Part shown: positions 6,692 through 62,264 of the stretch, one piece after another
How positions within the stretch are numbered: position 1 is the stretch's first letter
Layout of the letters: every line of letters starts with the position of its first letter
Source: Gammaproteobacteria bacterium
GTDB lineage: Bacteria; Pseudomonadota; Gammaproteobacteria; SZUA-229
DNA: 64,000 bases
NCBI GenBank assembly: GCA_015488885.1
Contig: WFMW01000023.1
Span: 1 to 64,000 of the forward strand
Direction of reading: 5' to 3'
Program-made: the position numbers and the translations under genes
Notes under the pieces: generated by a model
The model's database searches: none
What the model was told of the DNA's origin: nothing
Seen by the model: the letters and a program-made list of their open reading frames with translations, nothing else

Positions 6692-7657
6692 CTAAGGTGA
6701 CTCAGGTCTAAATGTAAAATAAATCTGCCGGTCAAAAACGTCAGGATTGGGTGGTAATGGCAGTGGTGAAGCCGCCTGCACTGCACGTTCCACCGAACGT
6801 TGAAAAGCGTTATCCGCCTGACATTTTTTCAATTGCACATTCACCACATCACCGGTATAAGTTTGTGTCACAACCACATCACAAAACTGCCCATTAGCGC
6901 TATCAGCTGGCCTTAGCCAGTTATTCTCAACCTTTTGTGCAATGAGCTTAACATATTGAGCTCGTAATGCGGATATCTTTGCAGCATGAGCGGCCTGTAA
7001 TCGTGCCTGCTCCTGACGTTGCTCTTCTTCCTTTAATGCCTGTTGCATTTCCTGTTTTGCTTCCTGCTGACGTTGTCTGGCCTCTGCAGCCAGACGTTTT
7101 GCACGCGCTTTGGCCGCCAGTTTTTTCTTTTTCTCTGCGGCTAAACGCGCTTTCTCGGCCGCCTTGCGTTTGCGTTCAAGTGCCTGTTTTTCTGCGGCGG
7201 CTTTTTTCTTCGCCTGCAATTTTTTCTGTGCCAGCAGTTTTTGCTGCTTTAATTTTTGCTGCTTTATTCTTTCCTGCTTTAATTTCTGCTGACGTTTTTT
7301 TTCAGCCAGCTGCCTGGCTTTTTGCTGATGTTTTTTATCCAGGACGGCCTGTTTTTTTCGTTCCAGCTCACGTTTTTTTCTTTCAGCTTCACGTTTGCGT
7401 TTTAATTTTTTTACTCGAATTTGTGCCTGTTTTATTGCCCGTTCCTGCTGTTTTTTCTTTGCTTTTTGCCGATCATACTGTTTTGCATCAACAGCAACGG
7501 CAGCAATGATTTTATTGGGTTTTTCAGCAACAGCCACAGGTGTATTATCGGTAAGATTAATACCCAGCAATACCACAAGGCCAAGGTGAAAAGCAATCAC
7601 CATGGCCAACACCCAGGGGTGATTTTTTATTTCCTGAAACAGGCTGGTTGAATTCAT
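6692..7657 (-). CDS. tolA: Cell envelope integrity protein TolA
   Basis: Inner-membrane protein that spans the periplasm and couples TolQR motor energy to TolB/Pal. ATG 7657 gives MNSTSLFQEIKNHPW and one membrane segment (VLAMVIAFHLGLVVLLGINL). A very long Lys/Ala/Glu/Gln/Arg helix (domain II, about residues 55-235) follows. The C-terminal domain III has paired Cys (FCDVVV and KKCQ) and ends PNPDVFDRQIYFTFRPE. An extended upstream reading (to 7756) lacks sense as TolA sequence and is not adopted. It lies between tolR and tolB on the minus strand. Confidence 0.95.
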   Translation of the reverse strand: MNSTSLFQEIKNHPWVLAMVIAFHLGLVVLLGINLTDNTPVAVAEKPNKIIAAVAVDAKQYDRQKAKKKQQERAIKQAQIRVKKLKRKREAERKKRELERKKQAVLDKKHQQKARQLAEKKRQQKLKQERIKQQKLKQQKLLAQKKLQAKKKAAAEKQALERKRKAAEKARLAAEKKKKLAAKARAKRLAAEARQRQQEAKQEMQQALKEEEQRQEQARLQAAHAAKISALRAQYVKLIAQKVENNWLRPADSANGQFCDVVVTQTYTGDVVNVQLKKCQADNAFQRSVERAVQAASPLPLPPNPDVFDRQIYFTFRPESP

Positions 7658-7771
7658 ATATACAACAATAAAAAACGCTGATAGTTCCCATATTTTGTGC
7701 GGAAGTTTATACAGGAATGCTCTGCATGCAGGCGCGCTCCATGTTCCCTGACACAAAACGTGGCAACAAGG

Positions 7772-8197
7772 TTACCCGTTATCATCCGTATCCGTCATCA
7801 AACCTACTTTAGCTACACCCGCCTGCTGTAATAACACCATTGCGTGAGTCACCGCACCATAATTCACATTGGTGTCACCACGTACCAGAACCGGGGTTTT
7901 GGGATGTAAGCGCATAATAATACCTACCCGTCTCAACACCTCATCCGCAGTCACCGGTTTTTTTACATCATCACCAATATTCAAATAATAACGACCAGCC
8001 TGACTCACACTAAGTATCACCGGCTCACGTTCATCCGGCGGTAACGGGTTAGCTGCCGCCTGTGGTAGTTTTATTTCTACACCCTGCTGCACGATAGGCG
8101 CAGTAATCATAAAAATAATCAGCAATACCAGCATTACATCAATATAAGGCACCACATTAATAGCAGCCATGGCTCGACGTTTATTTTTTCTGGCCAT
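7772..8197 (-). CDS. tolR: Tol-Pal system proton-channel protein TolR
   Basis: ExbD/TolR family; with TolQ it forms the proton-driven motor that energises TolA. ATG 8197 is chosen: MARKNKRRAMAAINVVPYIDVMLVLL, 141 aa, the family length. The single membrane helix carries the essential Asp in YIDVMLVLLIIFMI. The periplasmic domain ends with LVRGDTNVNYGAVTHAMVLL and AGVAKVGLMTD, typical of the family. Upstream codons to 8383 would overlap tolQ and are not TolR-like. Confidence 0.96.
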   Translation of the reverse strand: MARKNKRRAMAAINVVPYIDVMLVLLIIFMITAPIVQQGVEIKLPQAAANPLPPDEREPVILSVSQAGRYYLNIGDDVKKPVTADEVLRRVGIIMRLHPKTPVLVRGDTNVNYGAVTHAMVLLQQAGVAKVGLMTDTDDNG

Positions 8198-8252
8198 TAT
8201 TGTCTGTCCATTAGTATCTATCCAGTATTCTCTATCCAGCAGATGCTTGCGC

Positions 8253-9014
8253 TTAGCCCGGCACCACTTCCGTTTTATTACGCACCCGCAACGAAGCCGC
8301 TGCCTCAGTAGAGGGCGTTTGCATTTCAGTCTGATGACTCTGGCGCTGAAGAATGGTAGCGAATTCTTCGGCAAAGTTTTCATATGCTACTGACAGGCGG
8401 TCAACCTGATCGGCATAACGATTATACGCAACAACAGCTGGAATCGCGGCAAACAGGCCCATGGCGGTAGCAATTAAGGCCTCCGCGATACCGGGAGCAA
8501 CCATCGACAGACTGGCATGCTGAACCGCACCTAGCGCAATAAATGCCCGCATAATACCCCACACGGTACCAAACAGGCCGATATAAGGGCTGATTGAACC
8601 GATGGTCGCCAGTACAGACAGATTTGCATCGAGATACTCCTCCTCGCGAGCCAGTGCCACTTTCATACTGCGTTGCACACTTGATAAAACCATCTCTGCA
8701 TTACTGGAAGATGCGTTCGTTGCCAGATGTTTTCGGTTACGCATATATTCGCTGAAACCGGCCTTGAAAACATTAGCCATACCACGCTCCTCGGCATGGC
8801 GTTTGGTACGCTGATATAACTCGGCAAGATTGATACCTGACCAGAACTGATCTTCAAACCGGTTCGCCTGTTTTTGGGCCGTTTTGATTGCTCTGGATTT
8901 AATAACAATAATCACCCACGACAGTACGGAAGCAGATAATAATATGGTCATCACGATCTGCACCACAATACTGGCACGCGTGACCAGTGCAAACATGGAC
9001 ATATCAGCTTCCAC
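8253..9014 (-). CDS. tolQ: Tol-Pal system protein TolQ
   Basis: MotA/TolQ/ExbB proton-channel protein, inner membrane. Three membrane helices are visible: around residues 15-37 (IVVQIVMTILLSASVLSWVI), then a cytoplasmic loop, then segments containing NLSVLATIGSISPYIGLFGTVWGIM and MVAPGIAEALIATAMGLFAAIPAVV. GTG at 9014 is preferred because a perfect GGAGGT lies six bases upstream; an ATG four codons later is possible. The start overlaps ybgC by 11 bp, indicating translational coupling. The C-terminal tail TEAAASLRVRNKTEVVPG is somewhat longer than usual. Confidence 0.96.
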   Translation of the reverse strand: MEADMSMFALVTRASIVVQIVMTILLSASVLSWVIIVIKSRAIKTAQKQANRFEDQFWSGINLAELYQRTKRHAEERGMANVFKAGFSEYMRNRKHLATNASSSNAEMVLSSVQRSMKVALAREEEYLDANLSVLATIGSISPYIGLFGTVWGIMRAFIALGAVQHASLSMVAPGIAEALIATAMGLFAAIPAVVAYNRYADQVDRLSVAYENFAEEFATILQRQSHQTEMQTPSTEAAASLRVRNKTEVVPG

Positions 9015-9495
9015 TGCACACCTCCGGGAAATCCTGATTTTTTTTAATCGCTGTACTGAGAACTGTATTCATACTTATCTTTTGCAATACGGGCGCGGGA
9101 ATTTTCTGGCTTGAAAATTGTTCGGCATTCAGGCAGGCTATTTTAACCTCTGCCACGCATAGAGGTAAGGTATTAACGCTGCCTTTTTCAGGAAAAATTT
9201 TTTGACAAAAGACAATACTGACCTTACCCAGAGAAATAATGGAGGTTACCACATTCAAGCTATCATTAAACCGTGCCGGTTTTTTATACTGAATGCTGAC
9301 ATTATGGACGGCAAAAATAATGCCGTATTGCTGTTGTAACTGATCCAGTTCAAAACCCAGACTACGCAGACATTCGGTTCTTGCCCGTTCCATAAATTTC
9401 AGGTAGTTTGCATAATACACTACCCCGCCCGCATCGGTATCCTCGTAATAGACACGTACTGGCCATAAAAATTCAGTGTGTTTTTCTGTGCTCAT
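9004..9495 (-). CDS. ybgC: Tol-Pal-associated acyl-CoA thioesterase YbgC
   Basis: Hotdog-fold thioesterase that hydrolyses acyl-CoA at the inner membrane and accompanies tol-pal genes. The catalytic motif is [26 protein letters not shown], with the key Asp in EDTDAGG. ATGA overlap with ruvB upstream and an 11-bp overlap with tolQ downstream show tight operon organisation. The 163-aa length is slightly longer than E. coli YbgC; the extra residues are C-terminal. Confidence 0.93.
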
Positions 9496-52847: not shown

Positions 52848-52856
52848 GGTTATGGT

Positions 52857-53040
52857 GTTTCTGGGGTGTACGCAAGCAACCTGTATAATCCCTTGAGCCT
52901 TATATACTGACTACGGAAGCTGGTCTGTTGAATTTGTGTGCGATACCGCCTCGGCGGGAGGCCTGACGATTCATCGCTGGTTTCCAACCTGGACCATATC
53001 GGTTCGAGGTGGGCAGTATTGCTGCGGCACTCCGGTAACA
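52857..53040 (+). ncRNA. ssrS: 6S RNA
   Basis: About 184 nt between zapA and 5-FCL. The 5' part GGGGTGTACGCAAGCAACC followed by CCCTTGAGCC resembles the conserved GTTCGCAAGC...CCCTGAGCC of E. coli 6S RNA. The 3' end (GGCACTCCGG) pairs with CTGGGGTG to close the long rod; the central bulge imitates an open promoter. Binds sigma-70 RNA polymerase and reduces transcription in stationary phase. Ends inferred from pairing. Confidence 0.9.
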
Positions 53041-53073
53041 CCTTTTATTTACCCGACTTCACCATTCTACATT

Positions 53074-53655: not shown

Positions 53656-53716
53656 CCCGGATCATTCATGAATAATCAGAACCATAAACCATCAACATGA
53701 GCATTTCATGGTAAGG
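53653..53716 (+). mobile_element. Degraded inverted-repeat element relic at the 5-FCL stop codon
   Basis: TAACCCGGATCATTCATG begins at the stop codon of 5-FCL (53653-53655), and CATTTCATGGTAAGG at 53702 resembles the inner arm again. A small internally deleted copy is possible; identity is weak. Confidence 0.4.
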
Positions 53717-53731
53717 TTCCCTGGTTCACAA

Positions 53732-54562
53732 ATGCAACACCAGTCTAAAAAAATGCCGATAAAAATAGTTGTTCTACTTATTATACCGTTTTTCTCAACA
53801 CTGGCTTATGCTCAGATGCATGATGCCATTGCCAGACGAGCAAAGTTCGAATACAAGGCCGCCATCCACCTTAAACCTGACCTCGAACATGGCCGACAGA
53901 TTTACCAGACCTGCATGGTCTGTCATGGTGCCGAAGGATGGGGTAGCCGTAATGGCATGTACCCGCAAATTGCCGGGCAGTTAAAATCGGTTATTATCAA
54001 ACAACTGGACGACATACAAACAGGCAACCGCGGTAACCCAATGATGGTGCCATTTACCCAACCGGATATACTACCCAATGCACAGGCGATTGCTGATGTT
54101 GCCGGTTATATTTCACAACTGCCGATGACCCCCTTTAATGGCAAAGGTCATTCCATGGATCTTAAAAGAGGTGAACAGCTGTATAAAGATAATTGTGTTG
54201 ACTGTCACGGTAAACGTGGTGAAGGCAGCGAAAAAGATCATATACCACTTATTCAGGGACAACATTACAATTACCTTTACAGGCAGTTTCGCTGGATACA
54301 GATTGGCCGTCGCCGAAATGCCGACGATGACATGATTAAACAGATTCAAAAATTTCACGGTAGTGATATCGACGATATTATGGATTATGTATCGAGAATC
54401 AAACCACCGGCTGCAAAACTGGCTCGCCCTGACTGGATCAACCCTGATTTTCCTTATTACGTCCATGATATTATGCCTGCCAGACAGGTAGATGTTGAGC
54501 TACCTGAAGAACGAAACTACAAAATGAATGGAAACCGCGTTCAGAACCCAGATGATGAATAG
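53732..54562 (+). CDS. Dihaem cytochrome c (c4-like), exported
   Basis: 276 aa from ATG 53732; ATG 53708 and 53753 are alternatives. Signal peptide ends STLAYAQ. First haem site CMVCHG, second CVDCHGKRGEG, each followed by a c4/c5-like fold with the Met-ligand candidate NPMMVPF and a late Met. Periplasmic electron carrier. C-terminus ends in acidic DDE. Begins the multihaem locus but on the plus strand, separated from the minus-strand genes by a palindromic repeat. Confidence 0.85.
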   Translation: MQHQSKKMPIKIVVLLIIPFFSTLAYAQMHDAIARRAKFEYKAAIHLKPDLEHGRQIYQTCMVCHGAEGWGSRNGMYPQIAGQLKSVIIKQLDDIQTGNRGNPMMVPFTQPDILPNAQAIADVAGYISQLPMTPFNGKGHSMDLKRGEQLYKDNCVDCHGKRGEGSEKDHIPLIQGQHYNYLYRQFRWIQIGRRRNADDDMIKQIQKFHGSDIDDIMDYVSRIKPPAAKLARPDWINPDFPYYVHDIMPARQVDVELPEERNYKMNGNRVQNPDDE

Positions 54563-54618
54563 GAAATATTTTGTTGCCAGACTCTTAGTGTAGTGTCCTA
54601 AACAAATTCTATATTTTC

Positions 54619-54660
54619 AACCACAGAAAACACGGAAGGATTTCTGTGTATTCCGTGGTT
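54619..54660. repeat. Palindromic CCACGGAA repeat (copy 2) between convergent genes
   Basis: AACCACAGAAAACACGGAA (54619-54637) and CTGTGTATTCCGTGGTT (54644-54660) form an imperfect hairpin. It lies between convergent cytochrome and ankyrin genes, where a bidirectional terminator would sit. Confidence 0.85.
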
Positions 54661-54702
54661 CATTTATCGTTTGTATGACTAACTCAAACAAACAATAAAA
54701 AA

Positions 54703-55557
54703 CTACCTGTTTTTCAATAACAGATCGAGAATCTTTTTATCACCGGATTTTTTTGCCATCGAAATAGCCGAATTACCATCATTATCTTTTATCGCAGGGC
54801 TGGCACCATATGCCAGCAACAAACTTACTACTTCATTATGGTGTCCGGTTACGGCTTCCATTAAAGCAGTGGTGCCATCAACATCCTGTGCATTAACCTT
54901 TGCATGAAGATTTAATAAGGTTCTAACAACTGCCACATTACCTTTGGCAGCAACATTAATTAATGCCGTTGCATGGTCTCTATCGCGGGCATCCACCTCA
55001 CCGCCATATTTTACAAGTAATCTAACAACCCGAGGGAAGCCATGCTCAGCAGCAATAATCAATGCAGTATTATTATTGCGATCAACAGCTCGTGGATTGG
55101 CACCTTTAAATAATAACTGCTCAACGATTTTTTCCAGCCCATATTGTGAGGCTATCATTAATGAATCCCACCCGGAGCGAGTGCGCGCATGAATTTGTGC
55201 GCCACGCTCCAGCAACATGGACATAATGCCACTATTTCCATTTTCAGCAGCAAAGGTTAATGCACTACTACCTGCCACCGTCCGATGATTAACATCTGCA
55301 CCACGATTAAGCAATAAGGCGACTGTTGATAGTTTACCGTTCTCAACAGCCATCATCAATGCAGTCTGACCAAAGCTGTTACTGGTATCAACACTTATTT
55401 TTTTCCGATTTAACAGTTTTAACATATCTGCATTATTACCGGCTGCAGCATCAAGACGAAACCGGCTGCCATAATCCACTTTGTTATCTGCCGCATTTGC
55501 CGATAGAACCATTAGCAATGATGCAGTCAGTAAAAACAGTACATTTAGCGTTTTCAT
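54703..55557 (-). CDS. Exported ankyrin-repeat protein
   Basis: 284 aa from ATG 55557 with GGAGGTAGGG ribosome site. Signal peptide KTLNVLFLLTASLLMVLSANAAD. Seven or so 33-residue ankyrin repeats with GQTALMMAVENG, GSSALTFAAENG, DSLMIASQYGLEK, NTALIIAAEHGFPR, ATALINVAAKGN and TTALMEAVTGHHN. Ankyrins bind proteins; periplasmic ones often accompany redox or oxidative-stress enzymes. Downstream end of the multihaem gene group; role is inferred from position. Confidence 0.82.
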   Translation of the reverse strand: MKTLNVLFLLTASLLMVLSANAADNKVDYGSRFRLDAAAGNNADMLKLLNRKKISVDTSNSFGQTALMMAVENGKLSTVALLLNRGADVNHRTVAGSSALTFAAENGNSGIMSMLLERGAQIHARTRSGWDSLMIASQYGLEKIVEQLLFKGANPRAVDRNNNTALIIAAEHGFPRVVRLLVKYGGEVDARDRDHATALINVAAKGNVAVVRTLLNLHAKVNAQDVDGTTALMEAVTGHHNEVVSLLLAYGASPAIKDNDGNSAISMAKKSGDKKILDLLLKNR

Positions 55558-55773
55558 CCCTACCTCCATACAGCAGGATTACAATAACCATATATTACAT
55601 ATATGATAATCAATTATGATAATCAATTTTATAGCTACTCAACTACCCGTTGAAACCTGCCAGCGCCGAGTTAAAAAATGACCAGTTACAGATACAGGCG
55701 CACACAAGCCTCTATTAATGATCAAGATTAATCATAACACCAATAAACAGAATTATGGGAACAGTTAATCAGC

Positions 55774-56316
55774 TTAACTATCATCATCGTCATCGGGCTC
55801 TTCCGGGTCTTCATGCGCAATCCCTGAATGGCAATCAATACATTCCTTACCTTTATCAATGGCCTCTCCATGACGCTTGCGTGCTCGACGTGACTGTGCA
55901 CTTAAATCCATCTGATTCCATTTATGGCAGTTTTTACACTCACGTGAATGGTCTGCGCGCATTTTTGCCCACACGATATTAGCCATTTCCCAGCGGTGAG
56001 CTTCGTATTTCTTCTTAGTATCAATAACGCCGGTAATTTCACCCAGCACATCTTTATAAGCAAGAATTTTTGCTTTCATTTTAGGAAAGAATTCCTTTGG
56101 TACATGACAATCAGAACATACAGCACGTATGCCTAATGCATTTTTATAGTGAATAGTTTTTTTATACTCACGCAGGTTAACCTGCATGGAATGGCAGGAA
56201 GTGCAAAACTCCAGTTCATTAGTAAACTCCAGTGCACCATGAAATGATACAGTAAACAGAATACCGGCAATAAATACAACTGCAATAGCTATCCATGATA
56301 GTCTTCTTTTCGTCAT
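55774..56316 (-). CDS. NapC/NirT-type membrane-anchored tetrahaem cytochrome c
   Basis: 180 aa from ATG 56316, with GGAGGGG upstream (GTG 56319 possible). One N-terminal membrane helix (LSWIAIAVVFIAGILFTVSF) then four CxxCH: CTSCH, CSDCH, CKNCH and CIDCH. Spacing and the first site 'FCTSCHSM' match quinol dehydrogenases of the NapC/NirT/NrfH family, which oxidise quinol and pass electrons to periplasmic partners. The acidic end PEEPDDDDDS resembles the heptahaem protein's end. Part of an uncharacterised cluster. Confidence 0.9.
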   Translation of the reverse strand: MTKRRLSWIAIAVVFIAGILFTVSFHGALEFTNELEFCTSCHSMQVNLREYKKTIHYKNALGIRAVCSDCHVPKEFFPKMKAKILAYKDVLGEITGVIDTKKKYEAHRWEMANIVWAKMRADHSRECKNCHKWNQMDLSAQSRRARKRHGEAIDKGKECIDCHSGIAHEDPEEPDDDDDS

Positions 56317-56419
56317 CACACCCCTCCCCCAACTTCAACAATATTAAAATAAACAACGATGGAATAAAATTCCACAGCTTGCCTTACTACGACTAACGCC
56401 GTTTCAGCATAACAAAAAG

Positions 56420-56475
56420 CAAAAAAACATCCAGATTCCCATTATCCCGGTATGTTTTTGAGCCGGGATCCAGAC
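56420..56475 (-). terminator. Possible terminator after the thioredoxin gene
   Basis: Stem ATCCCGG/CCGGGAT (56444-56450 with 56463-56469) on the minus strand, with a later T-run around 56422-56427. The T-run is about 20 bases from the stem, so strength is uncertain. Confidence 0.35.
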
Positions 56476-56490
56476 TTGTTCAGAGGCTCA

Positions 56491-57120
56491 CTAACTCTTA
56501 AGCAACGGCAATAGATATAACTCTATCGCGTCGTCACTAATCATTCCCCGGTGGATATACTTTATCGTGCCGGTTTTATCTATCATCACAGAATGCGGAA
56601 TAATCGCCGATTTATTACCCCATTGCTTAAGTAACTTACTTCTTAACCCCTGAGGAACAATTAACACTGGATAATTAATACCCAGAGAACGAACAACATT
56701 TTTAAGTTTTGCTTTTTCATCCAGACCATAACTGACAACCTGCAAACCTTGTGCTGCATATTTTTTCTGTAATGCAATCAGATCAGGAATTTCATATTGA
56801 CAGGGCTGACACCAGCTTGCCCAGAAATTTATTAAAATAGTTTTGCCTTTCCAGTCATTTAACTGATGCGTGACACCATTAATATCCTTTAGCTTATAAT
56901 CGTGTATTTTCCAGGCACTTCGGGTTTGCCCAGGCAATACAATAGTTGATGTCCTTTCTGCTGGTTTTGCATGTGTTTTTCCTGTTACTACTTGAATATT
57001 ATCTCCCGGAACATTATCTCCGGGAACATCAGCTCTGGCAGAATAATAATAACCACCCGAAGCGGCAATTATCGCAACCCCCAGTACCACACCCACTGAC
57101 ACTATCTTATTTGCTAACAT
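56491..57120 (-). CDS. TlpA/ResA-like thioredoxin-fold protein
   Basis: 209 aa from ATG 57120. N-terminal membrane anchor (IVSVGVVLGVAIIAASGGYYY), then a periplasmic thioredoxin domain with FWASWCQPCQYEIPDL (active-site WCxPC), and a cis-Pro segment IIPHSVMIDKTG. Reduces CxxCH cysteines or otherwise assists haem attachment. Contains a duplicated VPGDN pair from a 15-bp tandem repeat (56999-57028). Clustered with 15 haem sites, so a cytochrome-maturation role is likely. Confidence 0.85.
   Translation of the reverse strand: MLANKIVSVGVVLGVAIIAASGGYYYSARADVPGDNVPGDNIQVVTGKTHAKPAERTSTIVLPGQTRSAWKIHDYKLKDINGVTHQLNDWKGKTILINFWASWCQPCQYEIPDLIALQKKYAAQGLQVVSYGLDEKAKLKNVVRSLGINYPVLIVPQGLRSKLLKQWGNKSAIIPHSVMIDKTGTIKYIHRGMISDDAIELYLLPLLKS
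56999..57028. repeat. 15-bp tandem duplication in the thioredoxin gene
   Basis: TTATCTCCCGGAACA and TTATCTCCGGGAACA adjoin, giving VPGDN twice in the periplasmic linker, with one silent difference. Frame is kept. Confidence 0.9.
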
Positions 57121-57199
57121 ATTAATGAATAACCTGTATTGAACGGCCTGAGCCAATGTTCTGATCTATTGATCTGATTTAATACTCTAAAATAATCTA

Positions 57200-58561
57200 T
57201 TACTTATTGCTGTTTTTTGCTGCCCCAACTGCTGTATCCGCCTGCACTAATTTCCAGCTAACCAGGTATTTTTTATACAAACTTTTCAAATACGGCCCCA
57301 TCTTCTGTGTAATGAGTAACTGTTTAATCTTGCTTTTCATACCGTTATAACGCAGGCGGCTGCCAGGTTTTGCATCAATAATTTCTACTATATGATAGCC
57401 TTTTGGTGTTTTAATAATCGGACTTACCTTGTTCACTGGCAGGTCTTTTAGTACCGCATTAATTTGTGGCAAAACCTTACCATCAGCAATCCAGCCCATA
57501 TCACCATTTTTACTTCTACCGTAACTATCGATACTATATTTACCTGCCAGCGTAAACAGGCTTTCACCTTTCTTTATACGTTGTAAAATTTCTTTAGCCT
57601 GTTTCCTGGTTTTTAAAACAACCTGACCAACGTGCCAGAACTGTGGTACAACACCAGTTTTAGGATGCTCTTTATAATATTTTTTTAACACAGTCTCATC
57701 AGGGATCCATTGCTGTATTTTTTTCTCCAGCATCAGATCAGGCAATCTTTCATTTTTATAAGCAAGTAATTGTGGCTCGACACTAATATTATCTTTTCTA
57801 GCAGCCTGTGAAAATAAAAGCAGCTCTTCACTTTGTTGCAAACGATTAAGCACTGCATCTGGATTGATGTTTTTTTCATCTGCCGTAACAACATCCTTAT
57901 AACGAATGGTAATATTTTTTCCCGTTAATAAAATCGTATCCGGCGGTGTTGGTGATTTTATTCGCTGCTGAAAGATAGTTACATTAGCCTGTTTTTCTAA
58001 ACGCTGTAATGCCTGCCTGCGTCTTTTTTTGTACTCTGTCGATATATAGATAACTTTTGCCGCTGAATAGGCATCGGAACTACTTTTATTATCTTTACGT
58101 ATCTGTGCCAGCTCATCCTTTGGGATTTTTATCTTATCTCTTATATGATGCAGATAGGCGTTGTAGAGCAATGAAGTCCGGTAATCACTCAACTCCTGTT
58201 TAAACGCAGCAGTCTTATCCAGACCTTCTGCTTTTGCTTCTTCAGCAAGCAATTTTGACGCCACCAGTCGCTTGAGTAAATCCCCGCGAATTAAAGCCTG
58301 CTGGTCACTGGTCATGGTATTAAACTGGGTATAAAACGGACTACTCTTGATCACTTTTTCCAGATCGATAGAAGTAACCGAATCGTGCTGACCAATCTTA
58401 ACCAGAATCTGATCCGGGCTGGTTCGACCCGAACCAGCTTGATTTTTACCTATCTGACTTGCGCCTGTATTGGCTGCCGACAGGGTAAAACTTGTCGTTA
58501 CAATTAAACCAAGTAAATAGCTTGCTACTCGTTTACTTATTATTTGTTTACATCTTTTCAT
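57200..58561 (-). CDS. PpiC/SurA-type peptidyl-prolyl isomerase
   Basis: 453 aa. Signal peptide (LLGLIVTTSFTLSAANTG), N-terminal SurA-like helical chaperone part (VTSIDLEKVIKSSPFYTQF), a second helical part, and a C-terminal parvulin domain with WHVGQVVLKTRKQAKEIL, GRSKNGDMGWIADG and KTPKGYHIVEI. Periplasmic foldase. Its place between heptahaem cytochrome and thioredoxin genes suggests dedicated folding help for the cytochromes, similar to PrsA/EpsD-like partners. Confidence 0.85.
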   Translation of the reverse strand: MKRCKQIISKRVASYLLGLIVTTSFTLSAANTGASQIGKNQAGSGRTSPDQILVKIGQHDSVTSIDLEKVIKSSPFYTQFNTMTSDQQALIRGDLLKRLVASKLLAEEAKAEGLDKTAAFKQELSDYRTSLLYNAYLHHIRDKIKIPKDELAQIRKDNKSSSDAYSAAKVIYISTEYKKRRRQALQRLEKQANVTIFQQRIKSPTPPDTILLTGKNITIRYKDVVTADEKNINPDAVLNRLQQSEELLLFSQAARKDNISVEPQLLAYKNERLPDLMLEKKIQQWIPDETVLKKYYKEHPKTGVVPQFWHVGQVVLKTRKQAKEILQRIKKGESLFTLAGKYSIDSYGRSKNGDMGWIADGKVLPQINAVLKDLPVNKVSPIIKTPKGYHIVEIIDAKPGSRLRYNGMKSKIKQLLITQKMGPYLKSLYKKYLVSWKLVQADTAVGAAKNSNK

Positions 58562-58921
58562 ATTTTACAACCGTCATATAAACCACTATTCCAGGAATGC
58601 TAACCGTATTATATATTTATAATTTTAGTTAAATCATTATTATTTAAATCTACTATTTGAATCGGTTATTCTAAACCTAATATCATGAACCCTTTGCACG
58701 AAACAGATTAGTGCGCAGATTAATGCAATAATGGTGACATTAAAATCGCCTTGCCACAACACGAAATCTACACCGTGCAAAACACTCATTCGTTAATAAA
58801 GTTAAAACTGGGGGCATGATTGCCCCCAGAAAAATATTAATCTGATAATCACTCCTTCTGTCAGAGAGTCGGCATAATGCAGACCCCCTGACAGATTAAC
58901 CAGTATTAAGACTGTAACATC
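58562..58921. other. Gene-free 360 bp between heptahaem and PpiC genes
   Basis: Contains the terminator 58801-58829 and an A+T-rich segment just before the PpiC start with TATAAT-like TATATAAT on the minus strand (about 58610). No open frame of interest. The PpiC group may have its own promoter here. Confidence 0.5.
58801..58829 (-). terminator. Terminator downstream of the heptahaem cytochrome gene
   Basis: CTGGGGGCA (58808-58816) pairs perfectly with TGCCCCCAG (58821-58829), tetraloop, followed on the minus strand by TTTTAAC. Located about 95 bp after the stop codon. Confidence 0.75.
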
Positions 58922-61366
58922 TTAATCATCGGAGTCATCATCGTCATCCTCTGAAGGTATTGCACCACCTTCATCTTTAGCACTGGCATGCATCCAGGAT
59001 ACCGCAGCATCGAAGTCATGCATAATGCTCTTACCTTTCCATTTAATTTTCTTCTTATTAGCAATAAATGGAACACCACTATCATTTACCTCATGACAGG
59101 CAGCACACTTGATGGGACCATGTGAACCATCAGGATTATACTGTGGAGCCTGTTTGTAAGTAGTGGTATCAGCACGCGGGTCAACCGGGTACAGACCATG
59201 AATGGACTGATGACATGCCTGACACGATAAACCAGAGTGACCTTTGGAATAGCGCATTTCACTGTATTTACCCGGTTGGTTAATCGGGAATGCAACGCCA
59301 CCCTGACCTTCTACAAAAGGTGCAGCATGACAGTCAGCACAGTGTGGCACACCTGCCGATAACCAGTAGTCACCACCATCAGACGCTGCCGTATAAGGTA
59401 CAGCAACTGCGCCCGTCGCACCTTTTGGCAGTTTTAGAGAAGCAATATCAACCGCAGGATTCGCTGACAAAATTGATACATTCACATCACCATCCACATC
59501 TTTATGTACCAGTGGTCCCTTACCTTTTAATGCAATCACTGCAATATCAGGTGTCATACGCGTTTTCGACCAGGTTAGCAGTACACCGGATTTTCCTGGT
59601 GTGTCGTGGCCTTTGCGGTCTAACACAACTTTGGGATCCATGTACTTATCTTCCAGATCTTTCATGCTTACTTTCAATGCGCGTGCAATATCCTTCAGCG
59701 ATTCATTACGAATGGTTGTGCCGGTTTGCAGGAAGGCATTCTTCAGGTTATCACGTTGATACAGCTCACGGGCTAACTGATTATGGCAGTTGGTACACCA
59801 TAAACCTTTACCACCTTTATGCCGTCCACCAATCTGTGAGACATTATCCTGTAACCACTGACCGATAGCATTCAGGTGACTAACACCATCCAGATCTTTA
59901 TCTTTATTAAGATTAGAGTGTACATCACGACCGGCAAAACAGCCTATACCATCACGGTTATCACCTTTAGCAAGTGGGTTCTTACCTTGCAGGGTAATGG
60001 GGAAATTAGACATATCACCATCCTGACGGTGGGCTGGATGACAGGCAGCACAGGCACCGGTACGGTTATGGCTATCCGGTAACGGCTGATCTTTCAGATG
60101 AACCCGGTGTAACGCACCTGTTAAAGAAGAAATTCGCACGGTTTTACCATGTTTATCTTTATGGGTTCCCGATTGCAGCACAGCAATCACGTTATCAGCG
60201 TGGCATTTTTGACATAAAACCGGGTCACGACCCAGGCGATTGCCCATATTACGACTTTCAGGTTTATAGTTTTTCAGGAAATGCGTGCCATTCTTATCAT
60301 CATGTATTTGCATAATAGAAATGGATGTCGCTTTCAGCCCGGCAATCCAGTCGGAAGCGCCCAGCCCTTTCCAGAAGGCTTTTTCACGTTTATACAGATT
60401 ATATTTTTTACCATTCGCGGTTTTATTTGCGTGGCAGCGTGAACAGTTAGGAACATCAATGGGTTCAGTACCGATAAAACGTACCGGTTTACCACTATGG
60501 CTATCAATCACTGGTTTGCCAGATTTTGCATCAACCATTTCCACCCATGCTTCCTGGAATGGACGCACATCAGGCTCGGTTAAAGTAAGCGGATTGCCTG
60601 CCTGGGCATCATCAAACGGCGTTAATGGCAAACCCAGTGCATCCCAGATTCCAGGATTGGTTAACACAATGGGAACATTGTCCAGGACATTGGATTTGGT
60701 AAATACAACGGTTCCAGTTTTACCCGTGTAATACAGGTGTCCGCCTTTTATCGGACTGGGCTCAACAGCACCAGCTGGACCATTGTCCTGAGGAATTTTA
60801 ATCTGCAAGCCAACAAACAGTTTTTCGCTGTCTTTACTGGTATGCTTGGGGTTGCTGCCTTTCAGGTCTTTATACACATACAAATGTGTAAAGTAGGCAT
60901 TTGCCACATTCTCATCCGGGCCATAATGCCCATCACCATTCACATCATAAGGCACATGGAAGTAATGCAGTTTTGCACCTTCCGAATAGGTGTTACCCAC
61001 AAAACCATAATTCAGCTTGAATTTCTTGTGGCCATCAACCAGCACATCCGGCTCGCCATCATCATCGGCTTCGAGTAATTCAGGGAATTTCTTTTTACCC
61101 GTTGAGGTTTTAATCACCTGGCTCTGTACCGAATTATACGGCGGTAACACACAACAATAAGTAAAATCAAAGCCAGTACAGTGCATACCCAGCTCATAGT
61201 TAATAGTTATGTTGTAATCATTTTTAGGTTTATGAATATCAATTTTTTTCGTTGTGGATGACATTGTCGGCGCAGGCGCTGTGGCTGATACCTGTTTCTC
61301 AGCAGCGCAGCCCGCCACACCAAACACCACCATCACAACGGCAAGTGAAAGCATTTTCATTAACAT
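58922..61366 (-). CDS. Heptahaem c-type cytochrome lipoprotein of unknown function
   Basis: 814 aa from ATG 61366, with GGAGG about 11 bases upstream. Lipoprotein signal SLAVVMVVFGVAGC (lipobox VAGC). Residues about 50-310 hold no haem but a striking Cys-rich segment ELGMHCTGFDFTYCCVLPPY and an EF-hand-like loop DVNGDGHYGPDE. Then seven CxxCH: CSRCH, CQKCH, CAACH, CTNCH, CADCH, CQACH, CAACH. The C-terminus ends in SEDDDDDSDD. Outer-membrane or periplasm-facing anchoring is inferred. No named family recognised; likely terminal electron carrier or enzyme of this cluster. Confidence 0.85.
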   Translation of the reverse strand: MLMKMLSLAVVMVVFGVAGCAAEKQVSATAPAPTMSSTTKKIDIHKPKNDYNITINYELGMHCTGFDFTYCCVLPPYNSVQSQVIKTSTGKKKFPELLEADDDGEPDVLVDGHKKFKLNYGFVGNTYSEGAKLHYFHVPYDVNGDGHYGPDENVANAYFTHLYVYKDLKGSNPKHTSKDSEKLFVGLQIKIPQDNGPAGAVEPSPIKGGHLYYTGKTGTVVFTKSNVLDNVPIVLTNPGIWDALGLPLTPFDDAQAGNPLTLTEPDVRPFQEAWVEMVDAKSGKPVIDSHSGKPVRFIGTEPIDVPNCSRCHANKTANGKKYNLYKREKAFWKGLGASDWIAGLKATSISIMQIHDDKNGTHFLKNYKPESRNMGNRLGRDPVLCQKCHADNVIAVLQSGTHKDKHGKTVRISSLTGALHRVHLKDQPLPDSHNRTGACAACHPAHRQDGDMSNFPITLQGKNPLAKGDNRDGIGCFAGRDVHSNLNKDKDLDGVSHLNAIGQWLQDNVSQIGGRHKGGKGLWCTNCHNQLARELYQRDNLKNAFLQTGTTIRNESLKDIARALKVSMKDLEDKYMDPKVVLDRKGHDTPGKSGVLLTWSKTRMTPDIAVIALKGKGPLVHKDVDGDVNVSILSANPAVDIASLKLPKGATGAVAVPYTAASDGGDYWLSAGVPHCADCHAAPFVEGQGGVAFPINQPGKYSEMRYSKGHSGLSCQACHQSIHGLYPVDPRADTTTYKQAPQYNPDGSHGPIKCAACHEVNDSGVPFIANKKKIKWKGKSIMHDFDAAVSWMHASAKDEGGAIPSEDDDDDSDD

Positions 61367-61622
61367 CTTGGCATTTCCTCCCGGAATTACAGTTTTCATC
61401 TCAAAAGCATTAACAAAACTCGTGTAGATTTTGTATACACTTCTGCTCTCTGGTTCTTACTTATTATTTCTAGCATTACAAATGTATTCCCCAACCACAA
61501 AAAAATCAATGCCATTTTGTCATATTGTAAAAATATAAAAGTTATTTTAATATGCCGACAGGTTTAGCTTACAGTATGTACAGGTAAACCTAATAAACTT
61601 AACAAAGGTTCAATATGATACT

Positions 61623-62264
61623 ATGAAAAAAATACCTATTTTAACGTTAGCAGCGACTGTTTTATTCACCGCATGCAGCATTGCCAGCGCCTCAGACCTG
61701 TCAAAAAAATGTGATAAATGCCACGGTAAAAACGGCAATAGTACCGACAGCAAAGTCGCTTCAATTGCAGGTTTTTCTACCTCTGTTCTCCATGATATTC
61801 TGCACGAATTTAAAGATGGTGATAGAGCTGCCGTCAAATACAAACCCAAGGATGGTAAAAAAACAGACATGAAGGAAATTACTGATAAGCTGAGCGACAA
61901 GCAGATAAATGAAATTGCTTTACATTACTGTAATCAGTCTTTTATACCACGCAAACAGCCCTTTGACGAAAAACTGGCTAAAAAAGGCAAAAAACTACAT
62001 AAAAGAAAATGTGAAAAATGTCATTCAGACGGTGGCACCAAAGCCGATGATGACGCTGCAATTCTGGCTGGACAGGGGCGTAAATATCTGGAGGAACAGT
62101 TCCACTTAATCCACACACACGACCGCATTGTGCCGAAAAAAATGTGGCATAAGTTCAAACATCTGAAAGACAAACAGATCAAAGAATTGACGGAATATTA
62201 CATCAGTGAACAAAACGGGAAACCCATCGTCAATGATGCGGATACCTGTAACCCGGATAATTAA
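61623..62264 (+). CDS. Small dihaem cytochrome c, c4-like, Lys-rich
   Basis: 213 aa. Signal peptide KKIPILTLAATVLFTACSIASA with possible lipobox (FTAC), two CxxCH: CDKCHGKNG and CEKCHSDGG. Unusually rich in Lys/Asp for a c4 protein; tail NPDN created by TAACCCGGAT read in frame. It diverges from the heptahaem gene, sharing a 256-bp control region, so it may be the soluble donor or acceptor of that system. Confidence 0.82.
   Translation: MKKIPILTLAATVLFTACSIASASDLSKKCDKCHGKNGNSTDSKVASIAGFSTSVLHDILHEFKDGDRAAVKYKPKDGKKTDMKEITDKLSDKQINEIALHYCNQSFIPRKQPFDEKLAKKGKKLHKRKCEKCHSDGGTKADDDAAILAGQGRKYLEEQFHLIHTHDRIVPKKMWHKFKHLKDKQIKELTEYYISEQNGKPIVNDADTCNPDN

Follow-up and report, generated by a model that had tools for sequence, protein, structure and literature searches.

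In the 64,000-nucleotide stretch analysed here (the window), seven genes with exactly 15 CXXCH haem sites (2 + 4 + 7 + 2 = 15) were found between positions 53708 and 62264, all of those listed for this region in the first-pass annotation being present. For the c4-like gene, the annotated start was revised, since position 53732 is a later in-frame Met and the gene begins at 53708. The genes and a terminator-like site between two of them are the following:

53708..54562, plus strand: dihaem c4-like cytochrome (match to cytochrome c4 6q2u, E 1e-12)
54703..55569, minus strand: secreted/periplasmic ankyrin-repeat protein
55774..56319, minus strand: NapC/NirT-family tetrahaem quinol dehydrogenase (PF03264, 219.7 bits; cut-off 24.1)
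56491..57156, minus strand: membrane-anchored TlpA/ResA-like thioredoxin with WCQPC
57200..58561, minus strand: PpiC/SurA-type peptidyl-prolyl isomerase (foldase)
58808..58829, minus strand: terminator-like hairpin with a T run between the HEP and foldase genes (9 bp stem, 7 G-C)
58922..61399, minus strand: HEP, seven-haem cytochrome of 825 aa (7 CXXCH)
61623..62264, plus strand: second dihaem cytochrome, FccA/PdsA type, divergent from HEP

All in the same direction, the HEP, PpiC, thioredoxin, NapC and ankyrin genes lie on the minus strand. The gene for the FccA/PdsA-like dihaem protein diverges from HEP, and that for the c4-like dihaem protein converges with the ankyrin gene. The hairpin between HEP and PpiC would fit a HEP message exceeding that of the foldase; such sites are mildly enriched here, with 12 found in the region against 7.3 expected from shuffled sequence, which is weak evidence. 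Outside the locus, a 6S RNA (RF00013, 75.1 bits) lies at 52855-53042 of the window (plus strand), flanked by zapA and the gene for 5-formyltetrahydrofolate cyclo-ligase.

HEP carries a lipobox (VAGC, C31) and ends in an acidic tail (DDDDDSDD). Its layout, of which an AlphaFold model was obtained with a pLDDT of 82 and a pTM of 0.85, comprises a haem-free beta domain (residues ~60-315), haems 1-4 (haem Cys at 319, 396, 450 and 535), a short beta stretch (618-668) and haems 5-7 (Cys at 687, 726 and 765). The motifs were mapped as follows:

61130..61201, minus strand: N-terminal motif NYELGMHCTGFDFxYCCVLPPYNS in the haem-free domain (H73, C74, C82, C83; C74-X8-C83)
60431..60445, minus strand: haem motif 1, CSRCH
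60200..60214, minus strand: haem motif 2, CQKCH
60038..60052, minus strand: haem motif 3, CAACH
59918..59941, minus strand: conserved non-haem Cys motif GCxxGRDxH (C487, H494)
59783..59797, minus strand: haem motif 4, CTNCH
59327..59341, minus strand: haem motif 5, CADCH
59210..59224, minus strand: haem motif 6, CQACH
59093..59107, minus strand: haem motif 7, CAACH

Relatives of HEP were collected from genomes representing one species each, and the best-matching 80 loci were kept; because many of these are metagenome-assembly fragments, the neighbourhood fractions given below are indicative only. The 65 full-length seven-haem members align over nearly their entire length, the seven haem motifs being identical in all, with 54-75% identity across Gammaproteobacteria, Nitrospinota, Acidobacteriota and Bacteroidota. 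The hosts comprise gammaproteobacteria (Sedimenticola-like and Chromatiales), methanotrophs (Methylobacter luteus, Methylothermaceae and a snail endosymbiont), Nitrosomonadales and Sulfuricella, Nitrospinota, one acidobacterium and Saprospiraceae; a nine-haem sister family is found in Thiodiazotropha and others. Among gammaproteobacteria the distribution is patchy, HEP being present in 15 of 369 sampled genomes (12 of 272 genera). Three copies from the JALXEI MAG, labelled Hyphomicrobiales, group with gammaproteobacterial ones (L037, L062, L093), and their contigs are probably mis-binned. One relative (G002:C209), which does carry MtrB, has a nine-haem and a seven-haem HEP (L128:1956-5072 and 6878-9037) in tandem around one PpiC gene.

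HEP matched no NCBIfam model and had no significant match in a PDB sequence search, and Foldseek of its model against the PDB, a search run without positive control, returned nothing below E 0.4; this places HEP outside the known named families, as had been suspected. The lipobox is present in 21 of the 65 members, so that being a lipoprotein is not characteristic of the family. Conservation peaks at the N-terminal LGMHC motif, with 63% of the columns from 60 to 97 reaching an invariance of 97% or more, compared with 27-39% of columns in the haem regions. Invariant in the family are the non-haem cysteines C74, C82, C83 and C487, together with ten histidines outside CXXCH.

Comparison of the gene neighbourhoods within the best-matching 80 loci revealed PpiC directly after HEP in 43 of the 56 seven-haem loci that were long enough, and in all 12 nine-haem loci; the HEP members of Saprospiraceae are without the foldase. 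A TlpA-like thioredoxin was located within 6 kb of HEP in 25 of the 41 seven-haem loci with enough flank, NapC in 12, an ankyrin gene in 10 and a dihaem protein of c4-like or FccA/PdsA-like type in 23. Thus, the view that the locus has its own thioredoxin and foldase is supported, the foldase being a near-constant and the thioredoxin a frequent neighbour of HEP. The full seven-gene set was recovered in at least three other loci (L035, L040, L092), and six of the seven genes occur together in L031, L033, L038, L043 and L045. Because the same genes recur together in other genomes, their grouping is not due to chance, and the proposal of a coherent electron-transfer locus stands; they do co-occur, but not as an obligate set, since only the HEP-PpiC pair is near-constant. 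HEP and PpiC form the near-constant core, and the electron-supply genes swap between lineages. Identities to the window proteins were 60-74% for HEP, 49-64% for NapC, 23-45% for PpiC, 43-52% for thioredoxin and 38-55% for matching dihaems; HEP, exceeding NapC, PpiC and the dihaems, is the most constrained member of the locus.

The window NapC has a PF03264 domain with four CXXCH motifs, one N-terminal membrane helix and an acidic tail; no second member of the NapC/NirT family was found in the genome. It scores below the subfamily cut-offs of NapC, TorC and NrfH (207 of 310.6 bits and lower). No NapA over cut-off was found in the host genome, and with NapC below every subfamily cut-off, a Nap, Tor or Nrf system was rejected. 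As to the absence of catalytic subunits of NapC-linked systems noted earlier, the cell does possess an enzyme that a NirT-type protein could serve, because NirS/cd1-type nitrite reductase genes are encoded elsewhere in the genome, on contig 28. These genes, and the commonness of the NapC/NirT family, would suit an arrangement in which NapC is a NirT-type donor to the cd1 nitrite reductase and adjoins HEP by chance. We consider this very improbable, given that the cd1-type cluster includes its own small c-type cytochrome and that the NapC-ANK-dihaem-HEP-PpiC-thioredoxin synteny recurs in many genomes.

Among solved proteins, FccA, the haem-bearing subunit of flavocytochrome c sulfide dehydrogenase (3vrd, E 5.5e-19; 1fcd), is the nearest to the second dihaem cytochrome, which scores 154 bits against the PdsA model NF049874, below the 330-bit cut-off. 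A search of the genome for the FccB flavoprotein gave no match, as was also the case for the control genomes. In the lineages with NapC, HEP and NapC often have acidic C-terminal tails and the c4-like protein often a basic one; these tails may be a docking device. A basic tail, RSWRPxxIR, was seen on the c4-like protein of several lineages; that of the window is not basic.

We propose, with a probability of about 0.4, that the genes of the locus form an electron-transfer chain in the periplasm which ends in a hitherto undescribed seven-haem oxidoreductase and runs from quinol via NapC and dihaem c to HEP and its substrate. The NapC-type tetrahaem protein would oxidise quinol and pass electrons to the c4-like or the FccA/PdsA-like dihaem cytochrome c, or to both, and these would dock on HEP; HEP would then pass the electrons on to a small substrate, in or close to the haem-free, strictly conserved Cys/His motif of its N-terminal domain. 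Maturation of HEP is ascribed to the PpiC foldase together with the TlpA-like thioredoxin, which would act in folding, on the non-haem cysteines C74, C82, C83 and C487 and in haem attachment. We infer a catalytic HEP, an outward flow of electrons from quinol and an inorganic substrate, most likely a sulfur compound.

Elsewhere, this HEP core is joined to different electron modules, depending on the lineage, namely a ba3 oxidase with dihaem c, DsrMKJOP, Nap or hydrogenase. The gene order COX2-COX1(ba3 type)-dihaem c-HEP was found in L066 and L107 (methanotrophs, some Sedimenticola), DsrMKOP-type genes lie beside HEP in L069 (DsrK, 570 bits; cut-off 400), NapA/NapB and a HAO-like octahaem protein are near HEP in L057, and a [NiFe] hydrogenase is near HEP in L080. 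A NapC-ankyrin-dihaem-FCSD flavoprotein run adjoins HEP in L155:97-4274, with the flavoprotein beside the PdsA-like dihaem, and possibly represents a sulfide dehydrogenase wired into the HEP cluster. In L097, HEP is adjoined by an octahaem protein related to tetrathionate reductase at the family level, and in L104 by a sulfur transporter.

The oxidase order in L066 and L107, the FCSD flavoprotein beside the dihaem in L155 and the predominance of chemolithotrophs among the host lineages agree with a module running inwards, where HEP oxidises Fe(II) or a sulfur compound as donor and feeds the dihaems and then oxidases, NapC returning some of the electrons to the quinone pool. The NapC/NirT proteins of known function, however, oxidise quinol, and the pairing of HEP with hydrogenase (L080) and NapA (L057) better fits an electron sink, which makes the inward direction improbable.

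For the outward chain proposed here, the guess of a sulfur compound as substrate stems from the association with dsrA and from the sulfur genes that neighbour HEP elsewhere. The host is a sulfur-cycling bacterium whose genome carries dsrA, which is present in 10 of 12 HEP genera compared with 77 of the 260 genera without HEP (Fisher p 0.0003, kinship ignored), an association that is confounded by kinship and habitat. Enzymes of nitrogen (NapA, HAO-like octahaems) and of oxygen (ba3) metabolism are likewise among the neighbours of HEP in other lineages, and methanotrophs carry HEP, too. These neighbours and carriers, the foldase-less Saprospiraceae and the confounded dsrA link weaken the enzyme and sulfur reading. 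A role in methanotrophy was dismissed, no AMO/PMO family match being detected in the genome (control genomes were also without a match).

A PpiC-type gene sits beside MccA. In its seven CXXCH motifs, as in SirA (PMC6976685), and in its sulfur setting, HEP resembles MccA/SirA, and Nitrospinota HEP loci have NrfD and FeS partners. None of the 65 HEP members has the MccA/SirA haem site (CX15CH or CX12NKGCH) or, more generally, an atypical catalytic haem motif (CXXCK or CX15CH). With this motif absent and no sequence or fold match to solved multihaem enzymes, an MccA-type sulfite reductase was rejected. The absence of an atypical haem motif also weakens the catalytic reading, as the ten invariant histidines could ligate all seven haems, which would be the situation of a pure electron carrier.

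HEP could instead be sited at the cell surface or in the outer membrane, as a cytochrome of an extracellular chain with a CymA-like NapC, a PdsA-like shuttle and HEP as MtrC analogue, reaching the exterior by a route other than MtrB; we hold this to be tenable, if less probable than the periplasmic chain. All 18 of 18 members gave a weak match to the MtrC/MtrF haem domains II/IV (PF22113; best 1.9e-8), the window HEP reaching 26.1 bits, under the 30-bit cut-off, and there was no match to the OmcA/MtrC model TIGR03507. The beta-haem-beta-haem order predicted by the model resembles that of MtrC, although no Foldseek match to MtrC was found, and C74-X8-C83 of HEP recalls the CX8C disulfide of MtrC (PMC4486940). 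A NapC-type quinol dehydrogenase and a PdsA-like dihaem are shared with the MtrC/OmcA/MtrF, CymA and PdsA systems, for which CymA-PdsA-MtrCAB is an established chain (PMC8805035). In contrast to the decahaem MtrC/OmcA cytochromes, HEP has seven haems rather than ten, and its host is devoid of an MtrB/PioB porin, for which the same search was positive in 36 of 369 gammaproteobacteria; MtrB is present in 1 of 15 HEP genomes and in 35 of 354 others, without association. On the haem number and the lack of MtrB in the genome, an MtrCAB-type conduit was rejected and kept only in the looser form of the surface cytochrome described above. The description of the locus as a "complete" and "extracellular" module could therefore not be upheld, since MtrB/PioB is absent from the genome, the seven genes are not obligate and the supply genes vary by lineage.

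PpiC foldases accompany other extracellular multihaem loci, i.e., those of ANME-partner sulfate reducers with 16/26 haems (PMC5539420) and the Uet complex with the peptidyl-prolyl isomerase UetB and an undecahaem cytochrome (PMC10734462). As in these operons, a peptidyl-prolyl isomerase is the core partner of a secreted multihaem cytochrome in the HEP locus, which differs from them in its cytochromes and in having neither beta-propeller nor porin. A genome belonging to the same family has 35 CXXCH motifs in one ORF of 926 aa (L123:78-2858; G023:C48:93077-95857), which lies ~2.5 kb upstream of a nine-haem LGMHC protein and recalls in its size the extracellular PCC3 cytochromes with 10-35 haems (PMC10734462).

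The genome of the window also encodes an LGMHC paralogue of 967 aa with nine haems (L114:7004-9907; G000:C70), which has a lipobox-like start and an Ig-like N-terminal part. This paralogue probably belongs to the cytochrome c553o type known from Methylococcus. HEP is distantly related to the nine-haem LGMHC proteins, as BLASTP gave 9e-10 with 23% identity over 380 residues for the paralogue, and alignment of the family profiles (hhalign) gave 99.8% with E 1.3e-27 over the N-terminal domain and haems 1-3. Both are large multihaem c-type proteins with a signal peptide, the LGMHC domain and the first three haem segments in common, and the paralogues have a Cys at a place similar to that of C487 (TxCLRGAM). 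HEP differs in having seven haems, the extra C82-C83 pair, the DNRDxxGC..GRDxH segment and a PpiC partner, and in lacking the Ig-like N-terminal extension. Methylococcus has six cytochrome c553o members (PMC517821), the proteins are surface-located and copper-regulated (PMC4831470), and deletion of MCA0421 lowered the anodic current (PMC6281684). This kinship with cytochromes of extracellular electron transfer and the weak likeness to MtrC/MtrF weaken the enzyme reading and speak for a surface location, against which stand the lipobox in just a third of the members and a conservation far above the norm for extracellular cytochromes.

Extracellular electron-transfer cytochromes of Geobacter are reportedly poorly conserved, with raised mutation rates (PMC12977616). 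Since in HEP the haem-free Cys/His motif is the most conserved part, a specific redox reaction is favoured, and the sequence pattern points more to a dedicated redox enzyme than to an unspecific wire. The enzyme reading is supported further by the absence of MtrB from the host and its presence in a single one of the 15 HEP genomes, and by NapC being the only NapC/NirT protein. A wider version of the periplasmic enzyme reading, which we regard as less likely than not, is that HEP founds a new class of multihaem respiratory enzymes. In these, the haem-free Cys/His N-domain, possibly with bound copper or another metal and matured by PpiC and thioredoxin, would serve as the active site, its substrate being an inorganic compound of sulfur or nitrogen, and the enzyme would be deployed in four phyla on different electron chains.

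The overall scheme of a NapC-type quinol dehydrogenase, a small shuttle, a large multihaem protein and a PpiC helper is already known; HEP itself, its conservation pattern and the HEP-PpiC core are undescribed as far as a literature search of partial coverage showed. At least Methylobacter luteus (L066) among the hosts is in culture, which makes the function of HEP directly testable. HEP is conserved across four phyla and enriched in dsrA-bearing lineages, occurring in vent, groundwater and methanotroph genomes, and, being without a family in Pfam, NCBIfam or PDB, it points to an electron exchange or respiratory reaction overlooked in present annotation.
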